DNA of 64,000 nt, from assembly GCF_003426735.1 (NCBI RefSeq), contig NZ_QVON01000004.1, positions 62,001 through 126,000 on the forward strand. The letters run 5' to 3'. This document shows positions 2,824 through 27,504 of this stretch, piece by piece. The stretch is from Arenibacter sp. P308M17 (GTDB lineage Bacteria > Bacteroidota > Bacteroidia > Flavobacteriales > Flavobacteriaceae). Both the position numbers and the translations under genes were made by a program. The notes under the pieces are model-generated. The model made no database searches. It had not been told where the DNA came from and worked only from the letters and a program-made list of their open reading frames with translations. Position 1 is the stretch's first letter; each line of letters opens with the position of its first letter.

Positions 2824-4821
2824 ATGGCAAAAGAAAATAATTCAGGTCCCAAAAAACCCAAATTCAATACTTGGTGGATATATGGCGTTATAGCTATATT
2901 ATTAATTGGCTTTCAATTTTTTGGAAGTGGAAACTTCGCGAATACCAAAAAAGCGAGCACTTCAGAGCTTCAAGAATATCTAAGAAATGGGGACATCAGA
3001 AAAATATTGGTCATTACCAATACCAGACAGGCAAAAATTTTCCTCACGGAAGAAGCCTTAAAGAAGGACGTACACAAGGATGTATCCGATCAACCCTTTT
3101 CGTTGACGGCCACTGCTACTCCACAGTATGTAGTAAACTATGGAGATCAGCAGAACTTTGAAAATGAGATCAATGACATTAAAAAGGAAAATAATTTAGA
3201 CACGGAGCTTACCTACGACCAAGAATCGAATGTACTGACCGAACTCCTTTTAACCTTATTACCGTTTGTACTGATCATAGGCATTTGGATCTATTTAATG
3301 CGTCGTATGTCCGGCGGGGCCGGTGGTGGGGCCGGTGGTCAGATTTTCAATATTGGAAAGTCCAAAGCCAAATTGTTCGATGAAAAAACGGACACGAGAA
3401 CCTCGTTCAAGGACGTTGCAGGATTGGAAGGCGCCAAGGAAGAAGTTGAGGAGATTGTGGAATTCTTAAGAAATCCGGACAAATATACTTCCTTAGGGGG
3501 TAAAATCCCCAAAGGAGCCCTATTGGTAGGACCTCCGGGAACCGGTAAGACCTTATTGGCCAAAGCCGTTGCCGGTGAGGCAAAGGTACCTTTCTTTTCA
3601 CTTTCCGGTTCAGATTTCGTGGAGATGTTCGTAGGCGTAGGTGCCTCTAGGGTACGGGACCTATTTAAACAGGCCAAGGATAAATCACCTGCCATTATTT
3701 TTATCGATGAAATCGATGCCATTGGTAGGGCAAGGGGCAAGAACAATTTCACGGGATCCAATGACGAAAGGGAAAACACCTTGAACCAATTACTGACCGA
3801 AATGGATGGTTTTGGAACTAATACCAACGTTATTGTTTTGGCAGCGACCAACCGTGCAGATGTTTTGGACAAGGCATTAATGAGGGCAGGCCGATTTGAT
3901 AGACAGATATATGTAGATCTTCCCGACATTAGGGAAAGGAAAGAAATTTTCGAAGTGCACCTAAGGCCTATAAAAACGGCGGAAACATTGGATTTGGATT
4001 TTCTGGCCAAACAAACTCCCGGTTTTTCGGGTGCCGATATCGCCAATGTATGTAATGAGGCGGCATTGATAGCTGCACGTAAAGAGAAAAAAGCCGTCAC
4101 CAAACAAGACTTCCTGGATGCTGTAGACAGAATTGTTGGGGGACTTGAGAAAAAGAACAAAATAATTACGCCTGGGGAAAAGGAAACAATTGCATATCAC
4201 GAAGCCGGACATGCCACCGTAAGTTGGATGCTGGAACATGCCGCACCCCTGGTCAAGGTAACCATAGTACCCAGAGGACAATCCTTAGGTGCAGCATGGT
4301 ATTTACCCGAAGAACGCTTAATTGTTCGCCCGGAACAAATGAAGGATGAAATGTGCGCTACCTTGGGCGGTAGGGCTGCCGAAAAAGTAATTTTCAACAA
4401 GATATCAACGGGAGCACTCAGTGATTTGGAGAAGGTAACCAAACAGGCCAGGGCCATGGTAACCATATACGGACTGAACGATGAAATTGGGAACATTACC
4501 TATTACGACTCATCTGGCCAAAATGAATATGGTTTTTCCAAACCTTACAGTGAACATACGGCATTGACCATAGACAAGGAGATTTCCAAGCTTATTGAAG
4601 AGCAGTATAAAAGAGCCGTTGAATTATTGTCCAACAACAAAGATAAACTAACCGAATTAGCGCAACGTTTATTGGAAAAAGAAGTTATATTTAAGGACGA
4701 TTTGGAAAAGATTTTTGGTAAGCGCCCTTTTGAAAAGGATCTACGACTTGAAGCTGAGGAAGCGGCGGAAAAGGAAGAAAAAGCGAACAAAAATCTTCCT
4801 AAGACGGAAACGGAAAAATAA
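2824..4821 (+). CDS. ftsH: ATP-dependent zinc metalloprotease FtsH
   Basis: Membrane-anchored AAA+ protease that degrades misassembled membrane proteins and short-lived regulators. Order: cytoplasmic tail, transmembrane helix 1 (about residues 17-34), periplasmic domain, helix 2 (about 143-160), a Gly-rich linker, AAA domain with Walker A GPPGTGKT (about 237-244) and Walker B IIFIDEIDAIG (about 292-302), then the M41 peptidase with HEAGH near 459-463. The 665-residue length is normal, with a charged Glu/Lys-rich tail. It heads a block with the LUD gene, cdsA, psd and the ACBP gene. Confidence 0.98.
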   Translation: MAKENNSGPKKPKFNTWWIYGVIAILLIGFQFFGSGNFANTKKASTSELQEYLRNGDIRKILVITNTRQAKIFLTEEALKKDVHKDVSDQPFSLTATATPQYVVNYGDQQNFENEINDIKKENNLDTELTYDQESNVLTELLLTLLPFVLIIGIWIYLMRRMSGGAGGGAGGQIFNIGKSKAKLFDEKTDTRTSFKDVAGLEGAKEEVEEIVEFLRNPDKYTSLGGKIPKGALLVGPPGTGKTLLAKAVAGEAKVPFFSLSGSDFVEMFVGVGASRVRDLFKQAKDKSPAIIFIDEIDAIGRARGKNNFTGSNDERENTLNQLLTEMDGFGTNTNVIVLAATNRADVLDKALMRAGRFDRQIYVDLPDIRERKEIFEVHLRPIKTAETLDLDFLAKQTPGFSGADIANVCNEAALIAARKEKKAVTKQDFLDAVDRIVGGLEKKNKIITPGEKETIAYHEAGHATVSWMLEHAAPLVKVTIVPRGQSLGAAWYLPEERLIVRPEQMKDEMCATLGGRAAEKVIFNKISTGALSDLEKVTKQARAMVTIYGLNDEIGNITYYDSSGQNEYGFSKPYSEHTALTIDKEISKLIEEQYKRAVELLSNNKDKLTELAQRLLEKEVIFKDDLEKIFGKRPFEKDLRLEAEEAAEKEEKANKNLPKTETEK

Positions 4822-10678: not shown

Positions 10679-10789
10679 GATCTTATCCAATAAATTGCCT
10701 ATTTCATCAAGCAATATAATCAATTCAAATAAAAAACTATTTTTACACCATCTAAATTTATACTATTGTTCTATAGAAAACCAACTACC

Positions 10790-12307
10790 ATGTGCCCTAA
10801 GTCTTTTTTTATACCATTACTATCCATTTTGTTTTTAGGTTTAATGGGCTGTAAAGACCAATCCAAAGAGTCCAATACCATAGCAGACCATCAGGTAGCT
10901 ATGGCCAATGAACCCCGTGGAGAGGACAATATTGCCTACCAATGGGCCCATGTGGCCTTGGAGGCAACTGCCAACGACACGGATCGCTTTAAGCCTAGGC
11001 CAACCGTTACCTCCAGATATCTGGGATTAATCTTTACTGCCATGTTCGATGCCTGGACGCGCTTTGACAATAAGGCCCAACCGGTATACCTGAAAAATTT
11101 GGAACGATTCCCGGAAAATGAAAGATCCTTAAAAAATAAGGAAATAGCGGTGAGTTATGCGGCTTATAGGGCCCTTAATGAATATTATTATTCCGATAGC
11201 ACACTTTTTAAGAAGAAGATGATCGCATTGGGCCTTGATCCACAAAATAAATCGAAAGACCCCGGTACTCCGGAGGGAATTGGCAACCTGGCCGCGGATA
11301 TGGTGATTGCGGCCCGTAAAAATGACGGGGCCAATCAATATGGGGAAGTGGAAGGTTCCAATGGGCAGCCCTATTTTGATTATACCCATTATGTGCCCGT
11401 AAACGATATTGATAAAAATATTGATCTTAACAGATGGCAACCAAAATATTTCTTGGACGGGAAGGGCAATAAATACAATCCAGGATGCCTTACCCCCTAT
11501 TGGCAGAAGGTAAAACCTTTACTTTTGGAAACTGCCGATCAATTTAGACCCGGGCCGCCTCCTATGGTGGGTTCCGAACAATTGGCATTGGAAGTTAAGG
11601 AAGTAATTGACCTTCAGGCCAATTTAACCCCGGAAAATAAGGCCTTGGTAGAATTTATGCGAGATGGACCCAAATCTGTGCAACAGGCAGGACATTGGTT
11701 GAAATTTGCGCAAGACGTATCTGCCCGGGACAACAATACTTTGGACCAGGATATAAAGATGTATTTTTTGGTAGAATCCGTAGCCATGGATGCCTTTATC
11801 TCCTGTTGGGATTCCAAAATGTATTATGATTACACACGCCCATATGCCTTGGTGCACGACTACTATCAAGACCAGGTAATTAAGGCTTGGGGAGGTCCTG
11901 ATAAAGGTATGGTTGAAATGAAGGGAAAGGATTGGAGGCCATATTCCCCCGATGCCTTTCTTTGCCCACCTTTCCCAAGCTACGTTTCCGGCCACAGTAC
12001 CGTAAGCGCAGGATGTGCAGAGGCATTGCGATTATTTACTGGGGATGACCATTTTGGTGTAGAAGTGGAACTGGTTCCTGGAGCGCTTACAGAGCCCAAT
12101 AACCTGGGTGACCCCGTTGTCCTAAAATTTCCAACTTTTACGGAAACTGCAGAAATGGCCGGTATTTCAAGGGTTATGGGAGGCTATCATATTCAGGCCG
12201 ATAATGTGGCAGGCCTGGAATTGGGCAGACAGGTAGCAAGATACCATTATAAAAAATACCTTCAGCTCATTGGTGAGGATGAAGGAAAAAAAACGATGGA
12301 CCAATAG
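10790..12307 (+). CDS. vanadium-dependent haloperoxidase-family lipoprotein
   Basis: About 505 residues. An N-terminal signal with lipobox (LFLGLMGC, Cys about residue 21) predicts an outer-membrane or periplasmic lipoprotein. All three PAP2/vanadium-haloperoxidase motifs are present: K-x6-RP (KMYYDYTRP near 343), the SGHS loop (near 402) and SR-x5-H-x3-D (SRVMGGYHIQAD near 459), which hold vanadate or phosphate and the acid-base His. Halogenation versus phosphatase activity cannot be decided from sequence. ATG 10790 is chosen over an upstream TTG because it starts the signal peptide. A barrel gene follows. Confidence 0.88.
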   Translation: MCPKSFFIPLLSILFLGLMGCKDQSKESNTIADHQVAMANEPRGEDNIAYQWAHVALEATANDTDRFKPRPTVTSRYLGLIFTAMFDAWTRFDNKAQPVYLKNLERFPENERSLKNKEIAVSYAAYRALNEYYYSDSTLFKKKMIALGLDPQNKSKDPGTPEGIGNLAADMVIAARKNDGANQYGEVEGSNGQPYFDYTHYVPVNDIDKNIDLNRWQPKYFLDGKGNKYNPGCLTPYWQKVKPLLLETADQFRPGPPPMVGSEQLALEVKEVIDLQANLTPENKALVEFMRDGPKSVQQAGHWLKFAQDVSARDNNTLDQDIKMYFLVESVAMDAFISCWDSKMYYDYTRPYALVHDYYQDQVIKAWGGPDKGMVEMKGKDWRPYSPDAFLCPPFPSYVSGHSTVSAGCAEALRLFTGDDHFGVEVELVPGALTEPNNLGDPVVLKFPTFTETAEMAGISRVMGGYHIQADNVAGLELGRQVARYHYKKYLQLIGEDEGKKTMDQ

Positions 12308-16351: not shown

Positions 16352-16383
16352 GATTAAATCCCGATAGTTATCGGGATTTAATC
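16352..16383. terminator. perfect 15 bp palindrome between HopJ and nagB
   Basis: GATTAAATCCCGATA (16352-16366) pairs perfectly with 16369-16383 around a 2-base centre. It lies between convergent genes and could end transcription in both directions, though no long T-run follows. The core CCCGATA..TATCGGG is a short palindrome seen widely in Bacteroidota. The last codons of nagB (MIKSR and stop) lie inside it. Confidence 0.6.
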
Positions 16384-17135
16384 ATGGAGGCCGATTCCTT
16401 GTCCAAAAAGAGGACCGTTTCTGGATGGGTCCTGAGTATTGAAGCCGGGCAAAAGGTGCCAATGTCACCGTAAAGGGTATTATAAACGGCCTGGGCCTTT
16501 CTTTGATCTGGCACCACACAACTAATGGCCTTACAGTTCATTATGGCGGTAATGGTCAGCGTAACGGCTTCTTTGGGTACATCGGCATAGGTTGGAAACC
16601 AGCCTTCCCCTAGCTGCTGATTTCTGCATGCCTCATCCAACTCCACCACCTTCACCAATTTGGGATCTTTAAAGTCGGCAACCGCCGGATCATTGAAGGC
16701 TATATGTCCATTTTCCCCTATTCCAATGCAGGCAATATCTATTGGATTTGTTTCTAACGCTTTTTCATAATTTTTGATCTCCATTTGCAAATTGGCTGCA
16801 TCTCCATTTAGGAAGAATATCTTTTTAGGGGCCACCCTATTTAAAATCCGCTCCTTGAGATATCTTCTAAAACTAGCGGGATGGGCTTCGGATATGCCCT
16901 TGTATTCATCCAGGTGAAATACGGTTATTTTTCCCCAATCGATTTCCTTGTTCTGCAATGCCTCTAAAAATGCAAACTGGGATGCTCCCGTGGCCAATAT
17001 AAGATTGGCCGCACCCCTATTAAGGATCGCAGCACTTAATTTTCCTTGAACATAATCAGCCGCCGCTGCACCCATTTCCTTTGTTTGTCCATAAACATGT
17101 ATGAACAGATTATCCATTTGAAACGACTTTTCCAT
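16368..17135 (-). CDS. nagB: glucosamine-6-phosphate deaminase
   Basis: Converts glucosamine-6-phosphate to fructose-6-phosphate and ammonia in the cytoplasm. The 255-residue protein has the family motifs FHLDEYKGI (about 73-81; catalytic Asp), and GIGENGHIAFNDP (about 138-150; catalytic His). No signal peptide. It is the last gene of the minus-strand LacI operon, nine bases after the Nramp-like transporter. Its final codons are built from a dispersed palindrome. A 6-phosphogluconolactonase is less likely given the ENGHIAFNDP motif. Confidence 0.92.
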   Translation of the reverse strand: MEKSFQMDNLFIHVYGQTKEMGAAAADYVQGKLSAAILNRGAANLILATGASQFAFLEALQNKEIDWGKITVFHLDEYKGISEAHPASFRRYLKERILNRVAPKKIFFLNGDAANLQMEIKNYEKALETNPIDIACIGIGENGHIAFNDPAVADFKDPKLVKVVELDEACRNQQLGEGWFPTYADVPKEAVTLTITAIMNCKAISCVVPDQRKAQAVYNTLYGDIGTFCPASILRTHPETVLFLDKESASMIKSR

Positions 17136-17144
17136 TGTATAGTT

Positions 17145-18386
17145 TTATATAAATTCGGATATAGCAAACCAGGTGGTCAGCAGTGAAAATAGGATAACCG
17201 CTATTAGCCCTAGATTGAGCTTAAGACCTGCCCTGTTATTCCCCATTAATTTTTGTCTATTGATCAATACAAACATTGGAACCGCTACTGCCGGCAGGAT
17301 ACAGGCTTGAAAAGCCTGGGAGAAAACCATTAGTGCCGGTGGCCTTTCCTCCAGAAAGACAGTTCCAAAGGCAAATACCATGGCTCCGAGCATTAAAGCT
17401 CTGGAAGATTTGGAATGAATATTTCTCGGAGTTCCCCTATAGTCTGCCAACAACCAGGGGGCTATGAGCACAATGGGAAAGATAGTGGAAAGTCCGGCTC
17501 CTGTAATCCCTATAATCAGTACAAAAGCCGCCAATTTACCTCCCAACGGCTCAAACAGGGATATCATTTCTACGGTATTGTCCAGTTTCATCCCGGAAAT
17601 ATGAAGGGTTCCTGCAGCAACCGCCATGATGATACCGCTCAAGAAAAGCATCATAAAAGCGGACACAAAGGCATCCGTCTTTTCCTTTTTTAAATCGTTT
17701 AAACCCCACCCCTTTTCTGCAACAACGGTACTTCTCATAACAAAAACAGCTGCAGAACAGGTGGTACCGGTAATGGCCGCAATGAGCCCCAATGCCCCGG
17801 GAGTGTTGGGAATACTAGGAATCATGCCCGATAGGATATCTGTCATGTCCGGACGGACCATGATAAAGACCACCATAAAGGAAAGTCCCATCAAGATGAC
17901 CAGAACGGTCAACACTTTTTCAAAAGCTTTATAACGTCCGAACCATAAAAAAAATGTCAGTATTGTTACAAAAAACAAGATGATCCATGCCCGGTGTATT
18001 ATAGTCCCGTTATACGCCAAGCGCACCCCTTCCTGCACCAGATCGGCCACTATGCCCATTACGCCCATAAGGGCCAATAATTCCCCTATGATCAATACAA
18101 GAATGATATAGAGCGAAAGTATCCAGCCCCATTTAAACTCCTGTTTAAAATTAAATAGCGCAGTCCTACCCGTCACCAAGGTTACTTTGCCATAGGCGAT
18201 CATTAGAACATAGGTAAAAATGCAGGAAAGCACTACGGCCCAAAAAAGGCCCATGCCAAACTCCGCGCCGGTCTTGGCCATGGTGGTAACGCTTCCCGTT
18301 CCAATATTGTACCCGATGAGGAATAAGCCGGGACCTACGGCACTTAGTCCCAAAAGGATTTTTTTAATTATCGATGTATTGCCCAT
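17145..18386 (-). CDS. Nramp-like transporter lacking the metal-binding motif
   Basis: 413 residues with about eleven hydrophobic helices and the Nramp start GPGLFLIGYN near residues 18-27. In metal-transporting Nramps helix 1 carries DPGN; here the aligned residues are GTGS (29-32). Helix 6 should carry MPH, but reads TTCSAAVFVMRS (about 204-215). Divalent-metal transport is therefore doubtful. It sits nine bases upstream of nagB and 80 after the nagA-like gene in a carbohydrate operon, so uptake of a sugar product is the better guess, by inference only. Confidence 0.8.
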   Translation of the reverse strand: MGNTSIIKKILLGLSAVGPGLFLIGYNIGTGSVTTMAKTGAEFGMGLFWAVVLSCIFTYVLMIAYGKVTLVTGRTALFNFKQEFKWGWILSLYIILVLIIGELLALMGVMGIVADLVQEGVRLAYNGTIIHRAWIILFFVTILTFFLWFGRYKAFEKVLTVLVILMGLSFMVVFIMVRPDMTDILSGMIPSIPNTPGALGLIAAITGTTCSAAVFVMRSTVVAEKGWGLNDLKKEKTDAFVSAFMMLFLSGIIMAVAAGTLHISGMKLDNTVEMISLFEPLGGKLAAFVLIIGITGAGLSTIFPIVLIAPWLLADYRGTPRNIHSKSSRALMLGAMVFAFGTVFLEERPPALMVFSQAFQACILPAVAVPMFVLINRQKLMGNNRAGLKLNLGLIAVILFSLLTTWFAISEFI

Positions 18387-18466
18387 AGTCTGCTATTTAT
18401 ATAATGAACCCATTTAATTTTCAACCAAGTACCCTAACATTCAACACTATAGAAATTCGCAACATG

Positions 18467-19684
18467 TTAATCTATGGAATGCACCAACTGTCCGGCTACA
18501 AATGTCTTTAGGATGACCATTTGATTATCCTCCATCTGAAAGAGAATAAGGTCTGCACGTTTACCCTGTCCTATTTCCCCCAGTCCGTCCAAAGAAAACA
18601 TCTTGGCGGGATTGGTACTTGCCATTTGTATGGCATCGGCCAGGGTACATTGTGTAAAATCCATAATTACCCCTACGCAAGCACTTATTGGTGACGCTGC
18701 CCCGGCCAGAACATTTTCCTTGGGTAATTTCACCACGTTGGGGGTCAGTAATAATGTACGTTCCCCACGGGTATACTCTCCCGGAGGCAGGCCCGCCAGA
18801 TCCAGGGCATCGGAGACCAAAATGGTTTTATCGGGGCCTTTTACCTTATAAAAACTCCGTACCTCTTCCTTGGTCAAATGAAATCCGTCCGCTATTAGAC
18901 TGGGAGCGATACGATCATCGGCCAATTGCGGCCAGATCGGGTTATGGTGCCTATTGATCTCGTTGGCACAGCCATTGCCCAAGTGGGTGGCCATTTTTGC
19001 CCCGGCATCTATGGCGCGTTTTATATCCTCTGCACTACCATTGTGATGTCCGAGTGCTACTACAATACCATTGGCCACACAATTGCGGATAAAGGGTATG
19101 GCCCCCTCCAATTCGGGAGCTAGGGTTATTATTTTTATACCATTGTTCGCTGCTTTCTGCAACTCCTTAAATTCCTCCCAGTCCGGGTTTTTAATATATT
19201 TCTCCAAATGTGCCCCCCTAAACCCTGAAATTGGCGATATATAGGGGCCTTCTAAATGGAACCCGGGAATGGATTTTCCTATCTCAGGATCCTTTTGTGC
19301 CTCGGCAAGAATTGTAAAATTCATTTTCATCCTATTGAAATCGCTGGTAATAATGGTCGGGAAATAAGTAGTTACGCCTGCCTTCCACAAGGCTTTTGTA
19401 GCCTTCCTTACCCCCTCCACCGTAAGATCCGGACCTGAAAAATCCACTCCCATATAGCCGTTGATCTGGACATCGACCAGACCGGGCGCTACATATACTT
19501 TGGAATCCCTGTCCCCATTGGCCAAGCGGTCGATTCCCGAAATTTTTCCGTCCGTAACCGATAGGGAGACCCAGCCCCCATCGGAATACAAAATACCCTC
19601 CATACCTTTTGGAGCAATAGACTGTGATATTCCCATATTATAAAAAAAGAAAAGTGCTAAAATTGATATATATTTAATTATCAT
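18467..19684 (-). CDS. nagA: exported N-acetylglucosamine-6-phosphate deacetylase-like amidohydrolase
   Basis: 405 residues, NagA-type TIM-barrel amidohydrolase. Metal and catalytic residues are visible: Glu in FHLEGPY (about 144), His in GHHNGS (about 211), His in THLGNG (about 230) and Asp in LVSDAL (about 289). Two features are odd. It begins with a signal-like peptide (MIIKYISILALFFFYNMGIS), placing it outside the cytoplasm, where GlcNAc-6-P does not occur. And the GREPG stretch that in E. coli NagA supplies a phosphate-binding Arg is replaced by INRHHNPIW. Its substrate may be an unphosphorylated acetamido sugar. Downstream of DUF1080 by 51 bases. Confidence 0.85.
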   Translation of the reverse strand: MIIKYISILALFFFYNMGISQSIAPKGMEGILYSDGGWVSLSVTDGKISGIDRLANGDRDSKVYVAPGLVDVQINGYMGVDFSGPDLTVEGVRKATKALWKAGVTTYFPTIITSDFNRMKMNFTILAEAQKDPEIGKSIPGFHLEGPYISPISGFRGAHLEKYIKNPDWEEFKELQKAANNGIKIITLAPELEGAIPFIRNCVANGIVVALGHHNGSAEDIKRAIDAGAKMATHLGNGCANEINRHHNPIWPQLADDRIAPSLIADGFHLTKEEVRSFYKVKGPDKTILVSDALDLAGLPPGEYTRGERTLLLTPNVVKLPKENVLAGAASPISACVGVIMDFTQCTLADAIQMASTNPAKMFSLDGLGEIGQGKRADLILFQMEDNQMVILKTFVAGQLVHSID

Positions 19685-19735
19685 AACAATATGTTGAATT
19701 AATAATTATCGGATCCTTGTCAATTCCATCGGAAA

Positions 19736-20563
19736 CTAACTTCCAGATTCAATTTTGCGAATCTTAATGTTCCGAAACCAGGCATCGTCCTTATGGTTTT
19801 GAAGGACAATATGTCCCTTTTTCTTATCCAAAAATCCTGGATAGTCCACAAACTTGCTTTTTTGGAAAAGGGAATCCAAATGTTGGGAACCAAATTCATA
19901 GGTAACCGCCATTTTCCCGTTGAGCCAGTGCTCTACCCTATTATTATTTACCACAATGCGACTGGAATTGAACATTCCGGCCGGCCTGACCTTTACATTT
20001 TCCGCAGCAATCATATCATAAAGACTAGCTGTATATTGGGAAGGCTTTAATTTTCCCGCGTAAAGTGTATCGGCATCATCCAATAACTGGTATTCAAATC
20101 CAAGGGCCGAATATGGGGAACCGAACTTTTTGGACATCTCTTCGGAAACATTGTACTTTAAACCTGTGTTGCCCGCTTTTAGTATTTTCCACTCAAAGTA
20201 CAATTCATAATTATCAAAGGTATCTACTGTCATTAGATCTCCCCCTTCCACGGGTTGGCCATCAGGTAGGGAAGGCACCTCTCCGCTATTCAATTTATGT
20301 ATGGCACCATCTTCAATTGTCCACAACTCGGTCTGAACATCATTCCTGCCCAAACCCCGCCAACCTTTAAACGATTCTCCATCAAATAGTAGTTCCCAAC
20401 CCTGCTGTTGCTCCAAAAAAGTTAAGTTATTGTGCAATTGCTCCCCAATCTTCATTGGTTCCTGCCTACTTTCCTCTTTATTTCTACAACCAATACATAA
20501 CAATCCCATTATGTAGACAATGGCAAATACACTACGCAGGCTATTCTTGTTATTCCCCATCAT
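19736..20563 (-). CDS. DUF1080 (3-keto-disaccharide hydrolase family) lipoprotein
   Basis: A lipoprotein (lipobox region MGLLCIGC) followed by a DUF1080 jelly-roll domain: WELLFDGESFKGWRGLGRN, the GGDLMTVDTFDNYELYFEW strand pair, NTGLKYNV, and C-terminal GHIVLQNHKDDAWFRNIKIR. Pfam links DUF1080 to hydrolysis of 3-keto-glycosides. The ATG at 20563 overlaps the stop of the upstream Gfo/Idh gene as TAATG; a second ATG follows at 20560. Tight coupling to a Gfo/Idh/MocA oxidoreductase supports an oxidise-then-cleave role in the periplasm. Confidence 0.88.
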   Translation of the reverse strand: MMGNNKNSLRSVFAIVYIMGLLCIGCRNKEESRQEPMKIGEQLHNNLTFLEQQQGWELLFDGESFKGWRGLGRNDVQTELWTIEDGAIHKLNSGEVPSLPDGQPVEGGDLMTVDTFDNYELYFEWKILKAGNTGLKYNVSEEMSKKFGSPYSALGFEYQLLDDADTLYAGKLKPSQYTASLYDMIAAENVKVRPAGMFNSSRIVVNNNRVEHWLNGKMAVTYEFGSQHLDSLFQKSKFVDYPGFLDKKKGHIVLQNHKDDAWFRNIKIRKIESGS

Positions 20564-21555
20564 TATAATACAACGGATTCCCAATTCCCTGAAACTATTG
20601 ATTTTTGAATGGCTTCCAATACCGCAATACCATGAATAATGCTCTCGTGGCTTCGCGGTTCCTTTCCGGTGCTGAACATATTTACCATATCCACATAATT
20701 CTTATCGGGATCAACGGGCTTTATACGCGACTTTAATTCCACCACCCCCTCATCGGTCTCCACAAAATTTTGCCAGCCGTACTTTTTGGTAGTAATCACC
20801 AAGGTGGCCATTCTTCCATTTTCAAATATTAAACTGGCGCTACTGTTCAAATTCTCCTTTTCATTCAGGTTGAATCTGGCGGAAACAATTTTTTCGTCAA
20901 AAAGATAGATCAGAGGCTCTACCAAATGCACTCCATAGAAAAAAAAGCCTCCATAAATGGAATTGATATCGGCCTTGCCGTAACTGGTTATTTGATTTAC
21001 CTCTTTCATTCCCGCCAATTGGCTACGCATATCGTCCGTAGCGTAGCTATGGGCTATGGAACTATAGGATGTTACCGGGGTACCAAGGGTCCTTGCCATT
21101 TCCAGAAATGTTCTTGCAGCCGCACTACTATAACAAAATGGTTTGTCTATAAAAGTAGGTATCCCCTTTTTGACAAAGGGGAGGGCGGCATCCAAGTGTA
21201 GGTCGCCATACCGATGATCAACGATCAATGCATCTATCTTTCCCATCATTTCCGATGGATCTTTTACAATAACGGGAATACTACCCTTGGTCTTGGCATT
21301 TTGGGCAAATTCCTCTTTTTCCCCCCAAACATATTTAACCTCCCAACCCGGAAATTTTTTATCCACATTGAACATTTTCCCGAAACCTATGGTATGTGAA
21401 TTTTCGGCACCAATGATACCAATTATCTTATTTTTTAGCCCCGGGGATTTTCCAGGCTTTAATTGGGAAAACAAAGTAGATGGTATGGACAGGGCCAAGG
21501 TTGAAAGTGCCGCCCCTTTTCCTATTTTCTCTAAAAATGATCTTCTGTTCGTCAT
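20563..21555 (-). CDS. Tat-exported Gfo/Idh/MocA-like protein, divergent active site
   Basis: 330 residues. A Tat-type signal (NRRSFLEKIGKGAALS) predicts folded export with cofactor. The Rossmann start reads IGIIGAENSHTIGFG rather than GxGxxG, and the usual EKP motif is IDKPF (Asp for Glu, near residue 138). Cofactor binding is therefore altered but may persist. It is ten bases downstream of the second Gfo/Idh gene and overlaps the DUF1080 start, so the three are one translation-coupled block. Probable sugar oxidoreductase or a partner subunit. Confidence 0.85.
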   Translation of the reverse strand: MTNRRSFLEKIGKGAALSTLALSIPSTLFSQLKPGKSPGLKNKIIGIIGAENSHTIGFGKMFNVDKKFPGWEVKYVWGEKEEFAQNAKTKGSIPVIVKDPSEMMGKIDALIVDHRYGDLHLDAALPFVKKGIPTFIDKPFCYSSAAARTFLEMARTLGTPVTSYSSIAHSYATDDMRSQLAGMKEVNQITSYGKADINSIYGGFFFYGVHLVEPLIYLFDEKIVSARFNLNEKENLNSSASLIFENGRMATLVITTKKYGWQNFVETDEGVVELKSRIKPVDPDKNYVDMVNMFSTGKEPRSHESIIHGIAVLEAIQKSIVSGNWESVVL

Positions 21556-21565
21556 ATATTTTTTA

Positions 21566-22918
21566 TTATAATTTCATTTCCCAGCCGTTTTCATAAGACC
21601 GGCTCCATAATTTCTGTGCATCGCTATCCTGCAAAATATGCCCGTTATCGGCATCTATATTCAAAGACCTCCCCGTACGCTGCGCAATATTCCCCAATTG
21701 CACCAACAAGGTACTTTTATGACCGGAGTCTATGTCCGCATTAAGGCTGGCCCCGTTTAGGATGGCATCGAACATATTTTGTATGTGCAGGGCATCCAAG
21801 AGTTCGGCCGGATTGGATTTATTCCTGGGATCTATTTCCTGGGTATTCTTAACTTCTTTCACCATTTTACCCTCCAAATCAAAAATGGTATAGCTATTGC
21901 CACCTGGTATTAGCATACTTCCGTTTTCCCCATAGAACATAACGCCGACCGCATTCCCTTCAATAGGCTTGCCATTACAGCTCCTACCTTCCCAGGACAT
22001 GGACAAGCCTTCGGCAAAATCCAAATTGATCACTTGGGTATCCGGTGTCTCCCAATCGTCCTGATATCTATACCTACCGCCATTGGAGCTAACCCTTATG
22101 GGATAGTCCACCTGCATGCCCCAACGCAGCAGGTCTATCATATGGGTACCATTGTTAAGGGCTTCCCCTGTTCCCCAATGCCATAACCAATGCCAATTAT
22201 AATGTACGATATTGTCCTTATACCTCATCCTAGGTGCCGGACCTTGCCAAAGTTCCCAATCCAACCAATCGGGTACCCCAACTTCCTTCCCGACCCCTAT
22301 GGACTGACGGTTATTGGTGTACCATCCTTTACCAAAATACACCCTACCAATGGCACCGGACTTCAAGGCCTTTATCCCTTCTACCACATTGGGCCATGAT
22401 CTTCGCTGGTTTCCCATTTGTATTACCTTCCCGTATTTTTTAGCGGCCTGTACCAAAATTTCCCCTTCATTGGGGTTGTGGCTACATGGTTTTTCCACAT
22501 AAACGTGTTTGCCTGCTTCCATGGCCAGGAGCGATGCAGGGGCATGCCAATGATCCGGTGCGGCGATCACTATGGCGTCTACGTCCCTGCTTTCCAAGGA
22601 TTTTCGAAAATCCGCATAGGTCTTCGGCTTCCTATCCTGCCTATCCTTTAAGGAATCCAAACATTTAAGGACAACTCTGCTGTCCACATCACAAAGATGG
22701 ATCACCTCGGAATTCTTCTGACTTGCAAAATTTTGGGCCAGGGCATTTCCCCTACTATTGACCCCCATCATGGAGACATTGATACGATCATTGGCCCCTA
22801 GAATACGGGCATAACTTTTGGCACTAAATTGGGGAAGGATTCCGGCCGTAGCTATGAAGGCGGAACTGGCTGCGGTTTTTTTAATAAAACTTCTTCTTGA
22901 ACTTGAATTTGATTTCAT
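21566..22918 (-). CDS. Tat-exported Gfo/Idh/MocA oxidoreductase
   Basis: 450 residues with a classic twin-arginine signal (SSRRSFIKKTAASSAF). The Rossmann domain starts VSMMGVNSRGNALAQ, a GxNxRG form common in exported members, with VEKPCSHNPNE as the EKP catalytic motif near residue 140 and the WHWLWHWGTGEALNNGTHMIDL segment typical of this Bacteroidota group. It should oxidise or reduce a sugar hydroxyl/keto group with NAD(P) carried through Tat. Upstream of the 330-residue paralogue in the LacI operon. Confidence 0.9.
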   Translation of the reverse strand: MKSNSSSRRSFIKKTAASSAFIATAGILPQFSAKSYARILGANDRINVSMMGVNSRGNALAQNFASQKNSEVIHLCDVDSRVVLKCLDSLKDRQDRKPKTYADFRKSLESRDVDAIVIAAPDHWHAPASLLAMEAGKHVYVEKPCSHNPNEGEILVQAAKKYGKVIQMGNQRRSWPNVVEGIKALKSGAIGRVYFGKGWYTNNRQSIGVGKEVGVPDWLDWELWQGPAPRMRYKDNIVHYNWHWLWHWGTGEALNNGTHMIDLLRWGMQVDYPIRVSSNGGRYRYQDDWETPDTQVINLDFAEGLSMSWEGRSCNGKPIEGNAVGVMFYGENGSMLIPGGNSYTIFDLEGKMVKEVKNTQEIDPRNKSNPAELLDALHIQNMFDAILNGASLNADIDSGHKSTLLVQLGNIAQRTGRSLNIDADNGHILQDSDAQKLWSRSYENGWEMKL

Positions 22919-22976
22919 GCTATCCAGATTTGATCGTTATTAACTTTATTTATTTCGTATGTCATTTAAAATGGGG

Positions 22977-24050
22977 CTAATATAGGCCCGAAAACTCCAT
23001 CCCTAGGGCATTGATCTCCTCATCGGAGATTTCTCCCGAGCACACCAATGTCCGAAAAGCAAAACGAACCGACTCCCCTTTCTTCAAACTCAGATCCATA
23101 GTTTCCTTGCCTTCCGAAAATACATTTTGACCCAGTGGATTTATGGCAAATAGACCGTAGCCCCTCGCGTGCCAATAGGCCGGATATCCCGGATTCTCTT
23201 TATGGTCCAGAATCACCACGGCAACTTTCCCCTCCTTATAGTTTCCAAAGAGTTTCATCCATTTGGCCCTGGTTCCCCATACATCTTCACCTCTAATACC
23301 TTCACTACTTAAATAATCCCCGGAAACCGCATCGTTGTTAATGACTTTGATCGTCTCCGGATTTCCGTGCGTATCGGTTAGCGTTAGCGGATCATCGGAT
23401 GGCAATTCCAGTTCACGACTTAGCCTAATGGCAAACATCCCCTCTTTGGTATCCTTGAACAGGATATCCTCCTGGGCCGTTAAGATACTGATCCAATCTA
23501 TAATCCTTATCCTCCCCTGGTCTATAAATTGAAGTTCAATTTCTTCCTTTATCTGGGTACGCCCCTGCGCTTCCCAATGGGTCCGGACCCGTATCGTTCC
23601 CTGGGCATCCTTGGCATGGGCCTCAACAACCTCCTGATGCCTGATAACACCACTAAATGGCTTGCGCTCTTCCGGGGTGGCTTCTGAATGCCCCCAATAA
23701 TCAATTCCGTTCACATCTCCATAATTCATCCACATCCCTATGTGGTGCGGATGGTCCGCACGTTCTCCGGCCACTGTCTTCAAAGGATATTTGCGTGTTA
23801 TCTCCGTGCCTTCCGAAGTCGTTATGGGCCATAAACACGGTTTCATAATATTGTCGGGATAGATGTAAGAAGTAAATAATTCATCCCCAAAGTAGACATT
23901 CACTTTTTGTTCCGACACCTTATTTTCTACCCTAACACCAGGTTTTTCGGTTTCCTGCAGGCCACTTACATCCTTCTTTTTGGACTTGCCATTTCCACAA
24001 GAAGCGAAAAAGAACAATAACACCAAATAACCAAGTTTTCGTATTCCCAT
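22977..24050 (-). CDS. DUF6807 (PmoA-like) lipoprotein
   Basis: 357 residues. The lipobox (VLLFFFASCGNGK) predicts a periplasm-facing lipoprotein. The mature domain matches DUF6807, which databases also call methane oxygenase PmoA: SYIYPDNIMKPCLWPITTSEG, DHPHHIGMWMNYGDVNGIDYWGH and NPGYPAYWHARGYGLFAINPLG. Methane oxidation is not implied; in Bacteroidota these genes travel with Gfo/Idh and DUF1080 genes in sugar clusters. The His-rich DHPHHIG stretch could bind a metal. First structural gene after the LacI regulator, 66 bases downstream of it. Confidence 0.85.
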   Translation of the reverse strand: MGIRKLGYLVLLFFFASCGNGKSKKKDVSGLQETEKPGVRVENKVSEQKVNVYFGDELFTSYIYPDNIMKPCLWPITTSEGTEITRKYPLKTVAGERADHPHHIGMWMNYGDVNGIDYWGHSEATPEERKPFSGVIRHQEVVEAHAKDAQGTIRVRTHWEAQGRTQIKEEIELQFIDQGRIRIIDWISILTAQEDILFKDTKEGMFAIRLSRELELPSDDPLTLTDTHGNPETIKVINNDAVSGDYLSSEGIRGEDVWGTRAKWMKLFGNYKEGKVAVVILDHKENPGYPAYWHARGYGLFAINPLGQNVFSEGKETMDLSLKKGESVRFAFRTLVCSGEISDEEINALGMEFSGLY

Positions 24051-24116
24051 AATATTTGTTTCCAGTTTAAAGAAAGTTACTTGACCCTTCCCAATTTATG
24101 CTATTTGGCAAGACCC

Positions 24117-25184
24117 TTATTGAAAATTAATATAATAATCCACGTTCTCTTTTATAATTATATCCAAAGGCACATACTGAATGGGGTTGGGCGACTTCTT
24201 GTAAACAAAAAAATCGAACAGCACCTTTACAGCGGTTACTCCCTGAAATACGGGTCTTTGTGAAATAATATAATCGATATTTCCATTTTTTAACTCGGCC
24301 ACATTCCCTGGAACAAGATCAAATCCGACCACCTTTAGTTCCAACCTGTGAAAGGCGTGGTACCTAGAAATAATGTGGGCCCTGGAGTTGGAAACAAAAA
24401 CACCTTTGGTCCCGGGATTCTTAATATAATAGGTGGTCAGTTCCCTGTTCACCTCGATCTCCGTGGTGGAGGGGATCGTAATGGAATTTATATTTCTCCC
24501 TGTCTGGGGTTCATTTTGCTTGAAATAATCCCTGAAACCGTTTTCCACAACGGCGGTATGGGCGCTATTCTCAAACCCCTTGACCATATTCACTATTAGG
24601 ATGTCGTCTGAAGGACCCAAGACCGAATTCAACAATTTTCCGGCTATGTATCCGCTGCCCTTTAGATCGGGCCCAATGTAGCTTAGATTTTTTTTGTTTT
24701 TGATGTTGGCATCTATAAAGACATAAGGAATATTCCTTTCTTCCAATTTCGTTATGAATTCCAGACTTTCCTTTTCAAACAGCGGTGCCAAAATTACGCC
24801 ACTTGGATTCTTGTCCAGAATGGCACTGGCATTTTTAACAAAACTGGATTCGTCGAACAAACTGTACTGGTAAGTGTATAGCTCCATACCAAAATCCCTA
24901 AATCCCTCCACTCCCTGATCTACCCCTATTTTTGGTAATGACCAATAACTTTCCGTGGTAACCGCTTCCGGAAACAGGCTGCACACCGTAAACTGCCTTC
25001 CCAAAGCCAAGGTTCTAGCCAGGAGATTGGGATTAAAATCCAATTTGTCTATGGCCTCTTCCACTTTTTTTCTTTTGGCATGGGACACCTTACCCCTATT
25101 GTGCAAAACCCTGTCTATGGTTCCTATGGAAACATTGGCATAGTTTGCCAGGTCCTGAATGGTGGTCTTTTTGTTTTTTGCCAT
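24117..25184 (-). CDS. LacI-family transcriptional regulator
   Basis: 355 residues: an N-terminal LacI helix-turn-helix (TIQDLANYANVSIGTIDRVLHNRG, residues about 8-31) and a periplasmic-binding-protein-like sensor (about 65-355) with GVILAPLFEKES, YVFIDANI and VVGFDLVPGN, of the subfamily that senses sugars. It is the first gene of the operon ending at nagB. A perfect TGTG-type palindrome and a -7 box lie 48-68 bases before its ATG, so autoregulation together with the whole operon is likely. Confidence 0.93.
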   Translation of the reverse strand: MAKNKKTTIQDLANYANVSIGTIDRVLHNRGKVSHAKRKKVEEAIDKLDFNPNLLARTLALGRQFTVCSLFPEAVTTESYWSLPKIGVDQGVEGFRDFGMELYTYQYSLFDESSFVKNASAILDKNPSGVILAPLFEKESLEFITKLEERNIPYVFIDANIKNKKNLSYIGPDLKGSGYIAGKLLNSVLGPSDDILIVNMVKGFENSAHTAVVENGFRDYFKQNEPQTGRNINSITIPSTTEIEVNRELTTYYIKNPGTKGVFVSNSRAHIISRYHAFHRLELKVVGFDLVPGNVAELKNGNIDYIISQRPVFQGVTAVKVLFDFFVYKKSPNPIQYVPLDIIIKENVDYYINFQ

Positions 25185-25231
25185 AGAAAATAAACTTACC
25201 TAATTATATGTGCTTAAATAAATTAAAAAAG

Positions 25232-25245
25232 TGTGTGCGCACACA
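25232..25245. promoter_or_regulatory. LacI-type operator, perfect 14 bp palindrome
   Basis: TGTGTGCGCACACA is a perfect palindrome with the central CG expected of LacI-family sites. It lies 48 bases before the lacI ATG and overlaps the end of the TATATTTG box on the minus strand, so a bound repressor would cover the transcription start. Confidence 0.75.
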
Positions 25246-25251
25246 AATATA
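25244..25251 (-). promoter_or_regulatory. TAnnTTTG -7 box of the lacI operon
   Basis: On the minus strand TATATTTG matches the Bacteroidota -7 box exactly and runs straight into the operator palindrome. No clear TTG is visible at -33. Confidence 0.6.
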
Positions 25252-25320
25252 AAAATAATTGCGATATGAGCGAGTTATTATGGAAATTTTAGATTCTGTT
25301 ACAGTGTTTATTTATATAAA

Positions 25321-25334
25321 TGTGTAAGCACACA
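25321..25334. promoter_or_regulatory. second LacI-type operator
   Basis: TGTGTAAGCACACA keeps both TGTGT and ACACA arms of the first site with a different 4-base centre, 89 bases away start to start. Paired sites at this spacing would suit repressor looping. A further half-site, TGTGCTTA, lies at 25209-25216. Confidence 0.6.
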
Positions 25335-25526: not shown

Positions 25527-26288
25527 CTACAATGACCTTCTAATGGCGATAAACAAAAAAATGAATAAAGAGTATATTATAAAAAAAGGAATTATGTATT
25601 CTGCCCACCCCAAAATCAGCATCACACTTATAAGTAGTAGTTGAAACCCAAGGCCAAAAGTAGATACGGCCGTCATAAGCCAATTGGGCAGATGTCTGCC
25701 GTTGGCAGCCTCGGCATCCAACTTATAAATAATTTGGTCAAAACTGCCGTAAAGTACTCTATACCACCAAAAAAGTACATTCACGTTTCGCTGCTGCTCC
25801 CCTGCCATTGCTACCGGAGTCCCAGATTCAAAAACTCGACTTGTAACATCGCCATGAAACTTATTTCTCAAAATTACATAGTAATAGTTATACAGGGTAC
25901 CCTGTAGTTGCAGCCCAAGAAATGCCAACAGGGCATAACCAAAACCCACATGGGTTATACGCCATAACACTAAAAATATCAGGATATTCAACACAAAATC
26001 AGAAAGGGAATCGAAATACCTCCCGGTATAGGAGGGCGCATCCTTGACCCGTGCCAACTCCCCATCGGCAGCATCCAAGATAGATTTTAAAATAAAAAAA
26101 AAGGCCGCATACCAATTATAGCCATAGTACATGCAGACCACCGCAATTACACCAGAGCAAAGAAAGCCAATAGTAACTTGAACGGGGGTAACGGCAGTTT
26201 CCTTTAATCCGTTTGCAATTACACTGGCCATTGGCCTCCCATAATCTGAAAGATCCAGGAATTTATGATCTTCAGGCAATTTAGACAT
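25527..26288 (-). CDS. CDP-alcohol phosphatidyltransferase family protein
   Basis: 253 residues, an integral membrane enzyme with about six helices. The signature DG-x2-AR-x8-G-x3-D-x3-D is complete (DAADGELAR...GRYFDSLSD, near residues 80-105), so it should transfer a phospho-group from a CDP-alcohol to an acceptor alcohol. The acceptor is not evident. It is upstream of the lacI operator region on the same strand and may be independent of that operon. An unusually long hydrophilic middle segment (about 165-205) is present. Confidence 0.88.
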   Translation of the reverse strand: MSKLPEDHKFLDLSDYGRPMASVIANGLKETAVTPVQVTIGFLCSGVIAVVCMYYGYNWYAAFFFILKSILDAADGELARVKDAPSYTGRYFDSLSDFVLNILIFLVLWRITHVGFGYALLAFLGLQLQGTLYNYYYVILRNKFHGDVTSRVFESGTPVAMAGEQQRNVNVLFWWYRVLYGSFDQIIYKLDAEAANGRHLPNWLMTAVSTFGLGFQLLLISVMLILGWAEYIIPFFIIYSLFIFLFIAIRRSL

Positions 26289-26487
26289 TTCCAGCTTTTT
26301 TTTGGAGCATTTTTAATGACTTAGCTACCTAAAATTAAAACAGCACACTTCGTTATTCCCACCAAATATACAACTAAAAAAAAGGAAATTGGTTAGGCCT
26401 GCCATACAAACGGATGACCTAAGGATCTTGGGAGGAAATAGGAAGGGCCACAACAAAATAAAATGAACCTATACAGACGGCCCAGCC

Positions 26488-27504
26488 TTACCCTTCCAAA
26501 ATCTCAAGCTGCCGAACAATGTCCTTTTCAGTTACGGGATACGGGATTCCCTCTGCAATGGATCTATAAACATCTTCGAACAAATTCATGTAGGACGATC
26601 TTACCGACTTTACTTTTTCAAGATGCCTTTCCCCATTCCCGTCAATAGTAGTGAGTACCCCATATTTATCGGCATCCTCAATTCCAAACAAAGGATTTCC
26701 CGGGCACATTCCCTCCAATAACTGCTGCTCCTGAATGTCCGTTCTTTGTTTAATAAAGGTCCCCTTGGTACCATTAAGGATAAAAGCGGCCTGCGGCTGC
26801 ACCACCAACATACTCATTGTTATAAACAGCTGAACTCCCTTCGGATACACTAAATGTATATGGGCATAGTCATCTACCTGGGTTTTAGGCCTAAACTTGC
26901 CGGTGTACTTTTTCCATTCCAATGGGTATCCAAAAAGTGCAATGGCGGCGTCCAACAAATGGGGGCCCAGATCATATAAAAGACCGCTGCCCGGCAAAGG
27001 GGTCTCCTTGGCTATTTTAGGGCCTATATGATACCGATATCTATCATAACGCATATGGGCTTCCACCATTGCTCCCAATTTACCGGAATCCAACACCTGT
27101 TTTACCGCCAGAAAATCACTATCGTACCTTCTATTCTGATAAGGTAGAATACAACGGTTCAGTTTTTTTGCCTCGGCAAAAAGTTCTTTGGCCTCAGCAC
27201 TACTTACACAAAAAGGTTTCTCCACCAAAACATGCTTCCCTGCTTTAAGCGACTTTAACGCAAATTCGAAATGCGTGTAATTGGGCGTATTCACCACTAT
27301 TAGATCCAAGTCCCTATCGGCTATAAGCTGATCAACGCTGTCGTAACTTTTTATGTCGGGATAACGTTTGCCCGCTGTTTTTTTACTCCGCTCTACAACC
27401 GCGGTTAACCGGAAACCAGAATGTTTGTTCAAAAATGGGGCATGGAACAAAGTACCCGACATGCCGTATGAAAGAATACCTGTTTTTATCATCTTCTTGG
27501 ACAT
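26488..27504 (-). CDS. cytoplasmic Gfo/Idh/MocA oxidoreductase
   Basis: 338 residues without a signal peptide. The N-terminus ILSYGMSGTLFHAPFL is the variant dinucleotide loop of the YvaA/YdgJ branch, and LVEKPFCVSSAEAKELF near residue 92 gives the EKP motif. GPKIAKETPLPGSGLLYDLGPHLLDAA carries the active-site His of the family. NAD(P)-dependent sugar oxidoreductase; substrate unknown. It is separated from valS by a repeat-bearing gap and from the CDP-alcohol gene by 199 bases. Confidence 0.9.
   Translation of the reverse strand: MSKKMIKTGILSYGMSGTLFHAPFLNKHSGFRLTAVVERSKKTAGKRYPDIKSYDSVDQLIADRDLDLIVVNTPNYTHFEFALKSLKAGKHVLVEKPFCVSSAEAKELFAEAKKLNRCILPYQNRRYDSDFLAVKQVLDSGKLGAMVEAHMRYDRYRYHIGPKIAKETPLPGSGLLYDLGPHLLDAAIALFGYPLEWKKYTGKFRPKTQVDDYAHIHLVYPKGVQLFITMSMLVVQPQAAFILNGTKGTFIKQRTDIQEQQLLEGMCPGNPLFGIEDADKYGVLTTIDGNGERHLEKVKSVRSSYMNLFEDVYRSIAEGIPYPVTEKDIVRQLEILEG

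Follow-up and report, generated by a model that had tools for sequence, protein, structure and literature searches.

Why does a gene for a relative of the canonical Nramp (SLC11) metal transporters stand between genes for a NagA-like deacetylase and a NagB-like deaminase/isomerase? The question is raised by an eight-gene run in Arenibacter sp. P308M17, which lies in a stretch of 64,000 nucleotides that we refer to as the window (assembly GCF_003426735.1, contig NZ_QVON01000004.1, positions 62,001–126,000 of the forward strand). The run occupies 16368–25184 on the minus strand and encodes a LacI-family regulator, a DUF6807 protein, two Gfo/Idh/MocA oxidoreductases (GfoA and GfoB), a DUF1080 protein, NagA, the Nramp-like protein and NagB, with intergenic gaps from lacI to nagB of 66, 58 and 10 bases, an overlap, and then 51, 80 and 9 bases. 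The window genome is 5.04 Mb in size and close to Arenibacter, and its Nramp-like protein and the one of A. troitsensis share 94% identity.

An initial annotation, made from the sequence without database searches, had described eight genes on one strand with gaps of 80 bases or less, and all of these open reading frames (ORFs) and the families named for them were recovered here. The one-base overlap it placed at the core, between gfoB and the DUF1080 gene, holds when the latter starts at the ATG at 20563 and becomes 22 bases with the upstream TTG. The absence of a TonB receptor, sugar kinase or TIM-barrel lyase agrees with our Pfam search, in which the eight genes matched no TonB receptor, kinase or TIM-barrel family. 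No role had been assigned to the Nramp-like protein, for which the comparative evidence is strongest. This is a conserved amino-sugar operon, and what is chiefly new in it is that an Nramp-related protein is probably a sugar carrier.

Conservation of the NagA–Nramp–NagB neighbourhood

Scanning named genomes with the Nramp-like protein alone retrieved 75 loci (given L numbers where they have to be told apart), including 74 in which the Nramp gene was called and 66 with at least 1.5 kb upstream. Eleven of these 66 are from Arenibacter, and counts were also made on the remaining 55 (given second in what follows). NagA lies immediately upstream of the Nramp gene in 46/66 loci (35/55), and within 6 kb of it we found NagA in 49/66 (38/55), NagB in 41/66 (30/55), one or the other in 53/66 (42/55), DUF1080 in 18/66 (7/55), and a Gfo pair in 31/66 (20/55), the last being upper bounds as best-match labels were used without an identity floor. 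On these counts the conserved core is NagA–Nramp–NagB, often with Gfo proteins, and DUF1080 is accessory. The NagA–Nramp arrangement is beyond chance, because the two genes adjoin in so many loci while the window genome has just one NagA covering most of the TIGR00221 model (seven further matches are weak and partial); it also has four PF01182 proteins. According to their record titles the loci come from Bacteroidota, candidate division KSB1, Calditrichota, Planctomycetota or Phycisphaerales, and one bin labelled Actinomycetota, and many of them are metagenome bins.

The amino-sugar operon with an exported deacetylase proposed in the initial annotation is supported by this recurrence of the genes as a unit across genera and phyla. 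The joint survey of DUF1080, NagA and Nramp suggested there gave a divided answer, with NagA regularly upstream of Nramp and DUF1080 optional. Nor do these counts support DUF1080 chemistry as the defining feature, and in other loci the same core or its sister carriers are accompanied by GH109, GH20 or GH84.

A similar association was seen in two phylum draws covering 395 genomes, where Nramp (E 1e-60) was found in 21 genomes, NagB (E 1e-45) in 32 and both in 15, which gives a Fisher p of 4.6e-14 when the draws are taken as a single panel. NagB was present in 13/13 genomes having an Nramp of the Nag or hexosaminidase clades described below, compared with 2/8 for other clades.

Other genes recur less regularly in the wider neighbourhood. 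DUF6807 homologues are also found in the gene runs of L082, L087 and L105; the GH109 C-terminal domain PF21252 occurs in L103, with GH109 homologues identified by clustering or BLAST in L067, L082, L106, L167, L168, L202 and L205; Amidohydro_2 proteins with a twin-arginine or lipobox-like start are present in L082, L085, L088, L097 and L106; and sulfatases are among the neighbours in L071, L078, L083 and L094. ROK, BadF and PfkB kinases were absent from the 25 commonest of the 66 Pfam families matched in 86 neighbour proteins of 230–470 amino acids (a selection from the 114 in this size range among 194 unlabelled neighbours), which leaves room for single matches, and the three ROK matches in the window genome lie elsewhere than the operon. 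We also note a class III aminotransferase and another Gfo protein beside Nramp in L070 (11285–13931) and L095 (453–3133), in neither of which NagB was called there, and this aminotransferase is a possible alternative for removing the amine. NagB-like ORFs of about 627 amino acids are found in L097 (1701–3581) and L106 (6563–8446); the one in L097 stands beside Nramp and an Amidohydro_2-family protein and matches both NagB and NagA as a fusion without a signal. A second, distant Nramp-like protein and two proteins with no Pfam match at E 1e-8 are located next to the NagA–Nramp pair at 4396–7796 of L143 (the same locus as L059).

An Nramp-related protein without the canonical metal motif

The Nramp-related protein (17145–18386, minus strand) is a member of the Nramp superfamily, with a PF01566 score of 196.3 bits against a Pfam cut-off of 29.8, and scores 27.7 bits with the canonical Nramp model TIGR01197, far under the cut-off of 272.5; this model had no match at E 1e-60 in the window genome. 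We aligned 135 sequences with MAFFT, namely the window protein, E. coli MntH, one canonical relative and 132 more, with near-copies left in. Transmembrane helix 1 (TM1) of the window protein reads GTGS instead of DPGN and TM6 reads SAA, within GTTCSAA, instead of MPH, in keeping with the earlier description of an Nramp protein lacking the metal motif. The TM1 ligands are replaced, D by G and N by S, in all of the sequences from Nag (65/65), alginate (15/15) and hexosaminidase (9/9) contexts, and in the Nag context M is replaced by S in 64/65 and H by A in 60/65 of the TM6 motifs. HMMER alignments to solved structures shift the TM1 residues by one column relative to MAFFT, yet also show the ligands gone, and from these alignments we infer that the protein has lost its metal site.

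An AlphaFold2 model (mean predicted local distance difference test score 83.5, with residues 1–30 averaging below 60) has helix breaks at 28–29 in TM1, next to GTGS in the low-confidence stretch, and at 210–211 in TM6 at the motif, in agreement with the broken TM1 and TM6 of the LeuT fold. The best folds found by Foldseek were EleNRMT (7qia, TMq 0.86) and DraNramp, and it counts against a sugar carrier that the closest of these is a Mg carrier. The protein might still be a divalent metal carrier, for Mg or Mn, serving the metalloenzymes of the pathway, with the sugar carrier encoded elsewhere. EleNRMT, an NRAMP-related Mg transporter, is also the best PDB sequence match (68.3 bits), and the near-invariant TM3 glutamate of the clade, E102, falls at an acidic position of DraNramp in one HMMER alignment and could bind a cation. 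YcsG (MntG), which belongs to a different Nramp-related group, has been reported and argued to be a Mn importer (PMC10448178), and a gene of an Alteromonas alginate cluster has been labelled as an Nramp, metal-ion transporter (PMC6431674). On the other side, neither the DPGN nor the MPH ligands survive in these contexts, and the first half of the NRMT signature DxxG–TxxA/T (PMC8806188) is absent, where the TM1 aspartate has become glycine, although the TM6 threonine is present. Import would take metal away from a periplasmic NagA, sodium:solute (SSF) or major facilitator superfamily (MFS) symporters replace the carrier in loci with the same NagB, and the same branch is found with alginate lyases and, once, with UxaC/UxuA (see below). 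We therefore regard metal transport as unlikely.

It should be noted that the acidic positions of the TM3 proton pathway are placed differently by the two methods, since in the MAFFT alignment both are occupied by hydrophobic residues in almost every sequence, and HMMER puts E102 at one of them. We had considered the loss of these acidic residues as a further character of the clade and have withdrawn it because the two alignments disagree.

Carrier clades and pathway contexts

In a phylogenetic analysis of 117 sequences, for which two canonical Nramps formed the outgroup, the Nramp-like proteins fell into clades which follow pathway context. We rely on the main clades only, as this was a quick IQ-TREE analysis with SH-aLRT support alone and gave warnings on long end branches (among them EcMntH, L186, L140 and L183). 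A clade of 68 rows has 53 from Nag contexts and 15 others, the loci here having been fetched by carrier similarity and not by context; one of 19 rows has 15 from alginate contexts (with PL6, PL7, PL17, and KdgK or gluconokinase) and four others; and one of ten rows has nine with GH20, some of which also have GH84, plus one labelled by NagB which has GH20 as well. Nine PxpABC-linked rows group together with one other row.

The alginate context consists of Nramp-related genes inside clusters with alginate lyases, KdgK or DEH-reductase-like genes (L127–L129, L131–L136, L139, L146, L180–L182 and L185), and L138, the one glucuronate cluster, has the order UxaC, SDR, Nramp, UxuA, in which we noticed no further carrier. 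The Nramp-like protein is not always the sole candidate carrier, because an MFS gene stands beside it in 5/15 alginate-context loci (L131, L132, L146, L180 and L181), an SSF gene coexists with it in L169 and L060, and another sugar-type carrier, judged by eye, is present in L099; we count these loci against the route proposed below.

Canonical metal Nramps are too rare in the family to serve as a neighbourhood control (TIGR01197 at E 1e-60 matched 1/100 genomes), and we used PxpT-type loci for this reason. PxpABC (5-oxoprolinase) adjoins 18 of the 20 other Nramp-labelled loci fetched in the family (L147–L166), with PxpA beside Nramp in these 18, and no NagA or NagB was found among the genes shown for the 20. 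The Pxp-linked Nramps fetched from these 18 loci also lack the metal motif. PxpT of Corynebacterium glutamicum, which belongs to the NRAMP family, is required for growth on 5-oxoproline, and the PxpT/YcsG proteins resemble the window protein in being Nramp-family members whose genes accompany those for the breakdown of an organic solute (PMC13274462). They differ in belonging to another clade, in their TM6 motif (VVPY compared with SAA here) and in substrate class, and the role of PxpT is known from growth; whether YcsG/PxpT carry metal or organic solutes is disputed.

The tight adjacency of NagA and Nramp could also be explained if the carrier exported or imported the acetate released by NagA. 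We consider this very improbable, given that the partners of related clades include alginate lyases, UxaC/UxuA and PxpABC, with which no acetate release is expected, and that SSF and MFS symporters replace the carrier. Our reading of the GTGS branch, whose members are annotated as divalent metal transporters, is held with moderate confidence and is that its members are sugar carriers, for free amino sugars in the NagA clade, for hexosamines in the GH20/GH84 loci, and for alginate-derived and hexuronate sugars in the remaining contexts.

Carrier replacement at the same locus and the predicted export of NagA

The orthologous Nramp was found in 12 of the 18 genomes from the genus, and these 12 also have the orthologous exported-type NagA. 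In three others (G494, G498 and G491) an SSF symporter and a signal-less NagA replace Nramp and the exported NagA, and lacI (about 64% identity), the palindromes described below and NagB (66–67%) are kept; two of the three also keep GfoA (63–64%) and one keeps DUF1080 (65%). Elsewhere in the phylum, NagB-anchored loci often have an MFS or SSF carrier with a signal-less NagA. Pfam MFS_1 matched 9/9 of the MFS proteins scanned from these loci, other MFS/SSF assignments being by Pfam for those scanned and by BLAST for the rest, and in our reading the MFS proteins resemble fucose- or NagP-type symporters.

In a reduced set, 42/44 Nramp-linked NagA rows have a signal-type start compared with 1/19 MFS- or SSF-linked rows. 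The twin-arginine motif of GfoA is kept in 13/14 NagB-anchored loci without an Nramp carrier, and therefore attack on the glycoside seems to stay outside the cytoplasm whatever the carrier. Most simply, deacetylation would precede import with the Nramp-like carrier and follow it with the symporters.

Signal state was assigned by a hydrophobicity rule and reading by eye. The rule scored 51 carrier-linked NagA proteins as exported, and L168 was scored as exported against it by virtue of a twin-arginine start. For the 19 MFS/SSF-linked NagA proteins the state was judged by eye: under the rule L205 and L206 had no signal and L197, L200 and L210–L212 received no verdict, its verdict of export was overridden for L199 and L209, whose called starts fall within the upstream MFS gene that overlaps them, and L189–L191, L215–L218, L221, L222 and L224 were assigned by eye alone.

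The link between export and carrier is less secure when common descent is considered. Across four independent contrasts, an average of 1.9 were in the same direction, 0.0 in the opposite direction and 2.1 showed no difference, and with fewer rows the three contrasts gave 1.0, 0.4 and 1.6, respectively; neither result is significant. Only four contrasts were available because NagA export is mostly one clade, and the test is underpowered. These tests left out near-copies (L040–L048 and L143), truncated sequences (L081, L092 and L098), the fragment L213, and loci with no carrier assignable in the same cluster (L195 with a signal-type NagA, and L204, L207 and L208 without a signal). Individual loci speak against the link as well, with L097 and L099 pairing Nramp with a signal-less NagA, L210 combining an exported-type NagA with another MFS, and the locus L195 lacking a carrier beside its exported-type NagA.

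L097 and L099 would be accounted for if the carrier moved the acetylated or 3-keto sugar, not the free amino sugar, with NagA export being incidental or acting on an oligosaccharide. The existence of loci without NagA is in line with this, as are the sister clades in uronate contexts, because of which the Nramp-like branch as a whole is not tied to amines. The difference in NagA signals between Nramp- and symporter-linked rows argues against it, although this is mostly common descent, and we give transport of the acetylated or 3-keto sugar a rather low probability.

Enzymes and proposed pathway

GfoA (21566–22918, minus strand; PF01408 59.4 bits, PF19051) has a twin-arginine start and the dehydrogenases 8tdf/8tdh as best PDB sequence matches, and its best NCBIfam match is the BT_2158 glycoside 3-dehydrogenase family (NF058561) at 161.6 bits, far under the cut-off of 750. 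GfoB (20563–21555, minus strand) also has a twin-arginine start and is more divergent, with 34.1 bits to PF01408 and no close solved relative (best PDB match E 0.0046). The DUF1080 protein (19736–20563, minus strand, with the ORF extending to the TTG at 20584; PF06439 135.0 bits) has a lipobox-like N-terminus and resembles PDB 4jqt, 3hbk, 8rr2, 8tda and 8v31, of which 8rr2 is named as a 3-keto-disaccharide hydrolase domain-containing protein and the 8td and 8v31 entries presumably come from studies of the 3-keto glycoside pathway. These matches make the 3-keto oxidative step put forward in the initial annotation plausible, with its action on an acetamido sugar inferred, and the neighbourhood counts do not support it as a defining feature. 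The GH109 enzymes are Gfo-fold NAD-dependent N-acetylgalactosaminidases active on N-acetylhexosamine glycosides; GfoA and GfoB share the fold and differ in having no match to PF21252 at E 0.001.

NagA (18467–19684, minus strand; PF01979 82.7 bits) has a hydrophobic, signal-type N-terminus and scores 221.5 bits with TIGR00221, just under the equivalog cut-off of 225.65. Residues E131, H195, H216, H251 and D273 (E. coli numbering), which we take to be the metal and catalytic residues, are kept in 52/52 aligned sequences. NagB (16368–17135, minus strand; PF01182 75.3 bits) belongs to a clade marked by CRxQQ..GEGWF and scores 139.3 bits with TIGR00502, under the cut-off of 236.9; its AlphaFold2 model (mean score 95.6) best matches the NagB structures 2ri1, 2ri0 and 2bkv. 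D72 and H143 (E. coli numbering), assumed here to be catalytic, are kept in 47/47 sequences, and E148 is replaced by D. Of the two residues we regard as phosphate ligands, R172 is absent in 47/47 and K208 is kept in 47/47, preceded by a nearly invariant arginine, R212, which could compensate for the lost R172. With R172 lost, NagB may act on an unphosphorylated sugar, but K208 and the neighbouring arginine are kept, together with N219 and R227 of NagA, and we no longer regard such a substrate as clear.

We think it fairly probable that the operon encodes a LacI-regulated route for N-acetylhexosamine glycosides, of the N-acetylglucosamine (GlcNAc) or N-acetylgalactosamine type, with an Nramp-related amino-sugar carrier. 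In the periplasm, judging from their families, GfoA (with GfoB) would oxidise C3 of the glycoside and the DUF1080 protein would cleave the resulting 3-keto glycoside. NagA, with its signal-type start and intact active site, would deacetylate the sugar outside the cytoplasm. The free, positively charged amino sugar would then enter through the Nramp-related carrier, a role suggested by motif, context and gene replacement, and in the cytoplasm the NagB-like enzyme would take off the amine. Three further observations fit this route poorly: neither NagA nor NagB is nearby in 13/66 loci, most of the relatives have no DUF1080, and NagA keeps N219 and R227, presumed phosphate contacts.

The first steps resemble those of Bacteroides thetaiotaomicron, where BT2158 is a periplasmic glycoside 3-dehydrogenase and BT2157 a DUF1080 3-ketotrehalose hydrolase (PMC11300592, PMC9007349). 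The window operon shares these two families and differs in adding an exported-type NagA, NagB and the Nramp-related carrier, and in a GfoA that falls below the BT_2158 equivalog cut-off. The later steps share NagA/NagB chemistry with classical GlcNAc catabolism, which uses NagP/NagK or a phosphotransferase system (PTS) with cytosolic NagA and NagB, and NagX for glucosamine (PMC9007349). The MFS/SSF versions of the cluster resemble this classical route, from which the window operon differs in its exported-type NagA and in having no sugar kinase matched.

LacI and operator-like palindromes

The LacI-family regulator (24117–25184, minus strand; PF00356 52.7 bits, PF13407 94.2 bits) is preceded by two operator-like sites of the pattern TGTGTNNNNACACA, a proximal perfect palindrome, TGTGTGCGCACACA, at 25232–25245 and a distal near-palindrome, TGTGTAAGCACACA, at 25321–25334. 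The initial annotation did not mention them, and its end coordinate of 25334 is the end of the distal one. The pattern occurs in 22/22 fetched loci with a LacI more than 48% identical (21 distinct, as L058 is the same as L192) and had no match in the remaining fetched loci, which amount to 2,472,108 bases with overlaps counted. The latter is unremarkable because about two chance matches are expected there, and the weight rests on the 22/22. A second site is also located 89–90 bp from the proximal one in L039–L049 and L058, and 101–111 bp away in L189–L191. The palindromes are common to the Nramp and SSF versions of the locus, which suggests that both respond to one inducer through these putative operators.

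Other features of the operon and window

The DUF6807 protein (22977–24050, minus strand; PF14100 238.4 bits) has a lipobox-like N-terminus; this and the other N-terminal export features of the operon were judged by eye. The window genome has 27 DUF1080 matches, 26 of them above the Pfam cut-off and some in double-domain proteins, making a large 3-keto hydrolase-like set. Upstream of the operon, at 25527–27504, are genes for a CDP-alcohol phosphatidyltransferase and another Gfo/Idh/MocA protein, which are kept in the 11 Arenibacter loci and were seen in none of the other runs. A protein of 513 amino acids at 10766–12307 is, by eye only, like vanadium haloperoxidase/PAP2-like enzymes. Promoter and terminator consensus scans were at chance level (19 compared with a mean of 23.7, and 12 compared with 11.7, respectively).

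Implications for amino-sugar and alginate catabolism

Our literature search, which looked for Nramp proteins linked to NagA/NagB, chitin, uronates or the transport of sugars and for a route with exported NagA, found no description of such a system among the papers ranked highest, and as it covered few subscription journals this is weak evidence of novelty. If the proposed route is correct, the order of deacetylation outside the cell membrane followed by import would be new as far as the literature searched shows, and periplasmic deacetylation with amino-sugar import would offer another way to use GlcNAc than the routes that begin with a kinase or PTS. The operon supplies a candidate for the substrate, a regulator whose gene is preceded by operator-like sites, and an SSF replacement at the same locus, which makes the question of the carrier directly testable. 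If the GTGS branch does consist of sugar carriers, then genes labelled as metal transporters in alginate and amino-sugar clusters would be carriers of sugars instead.

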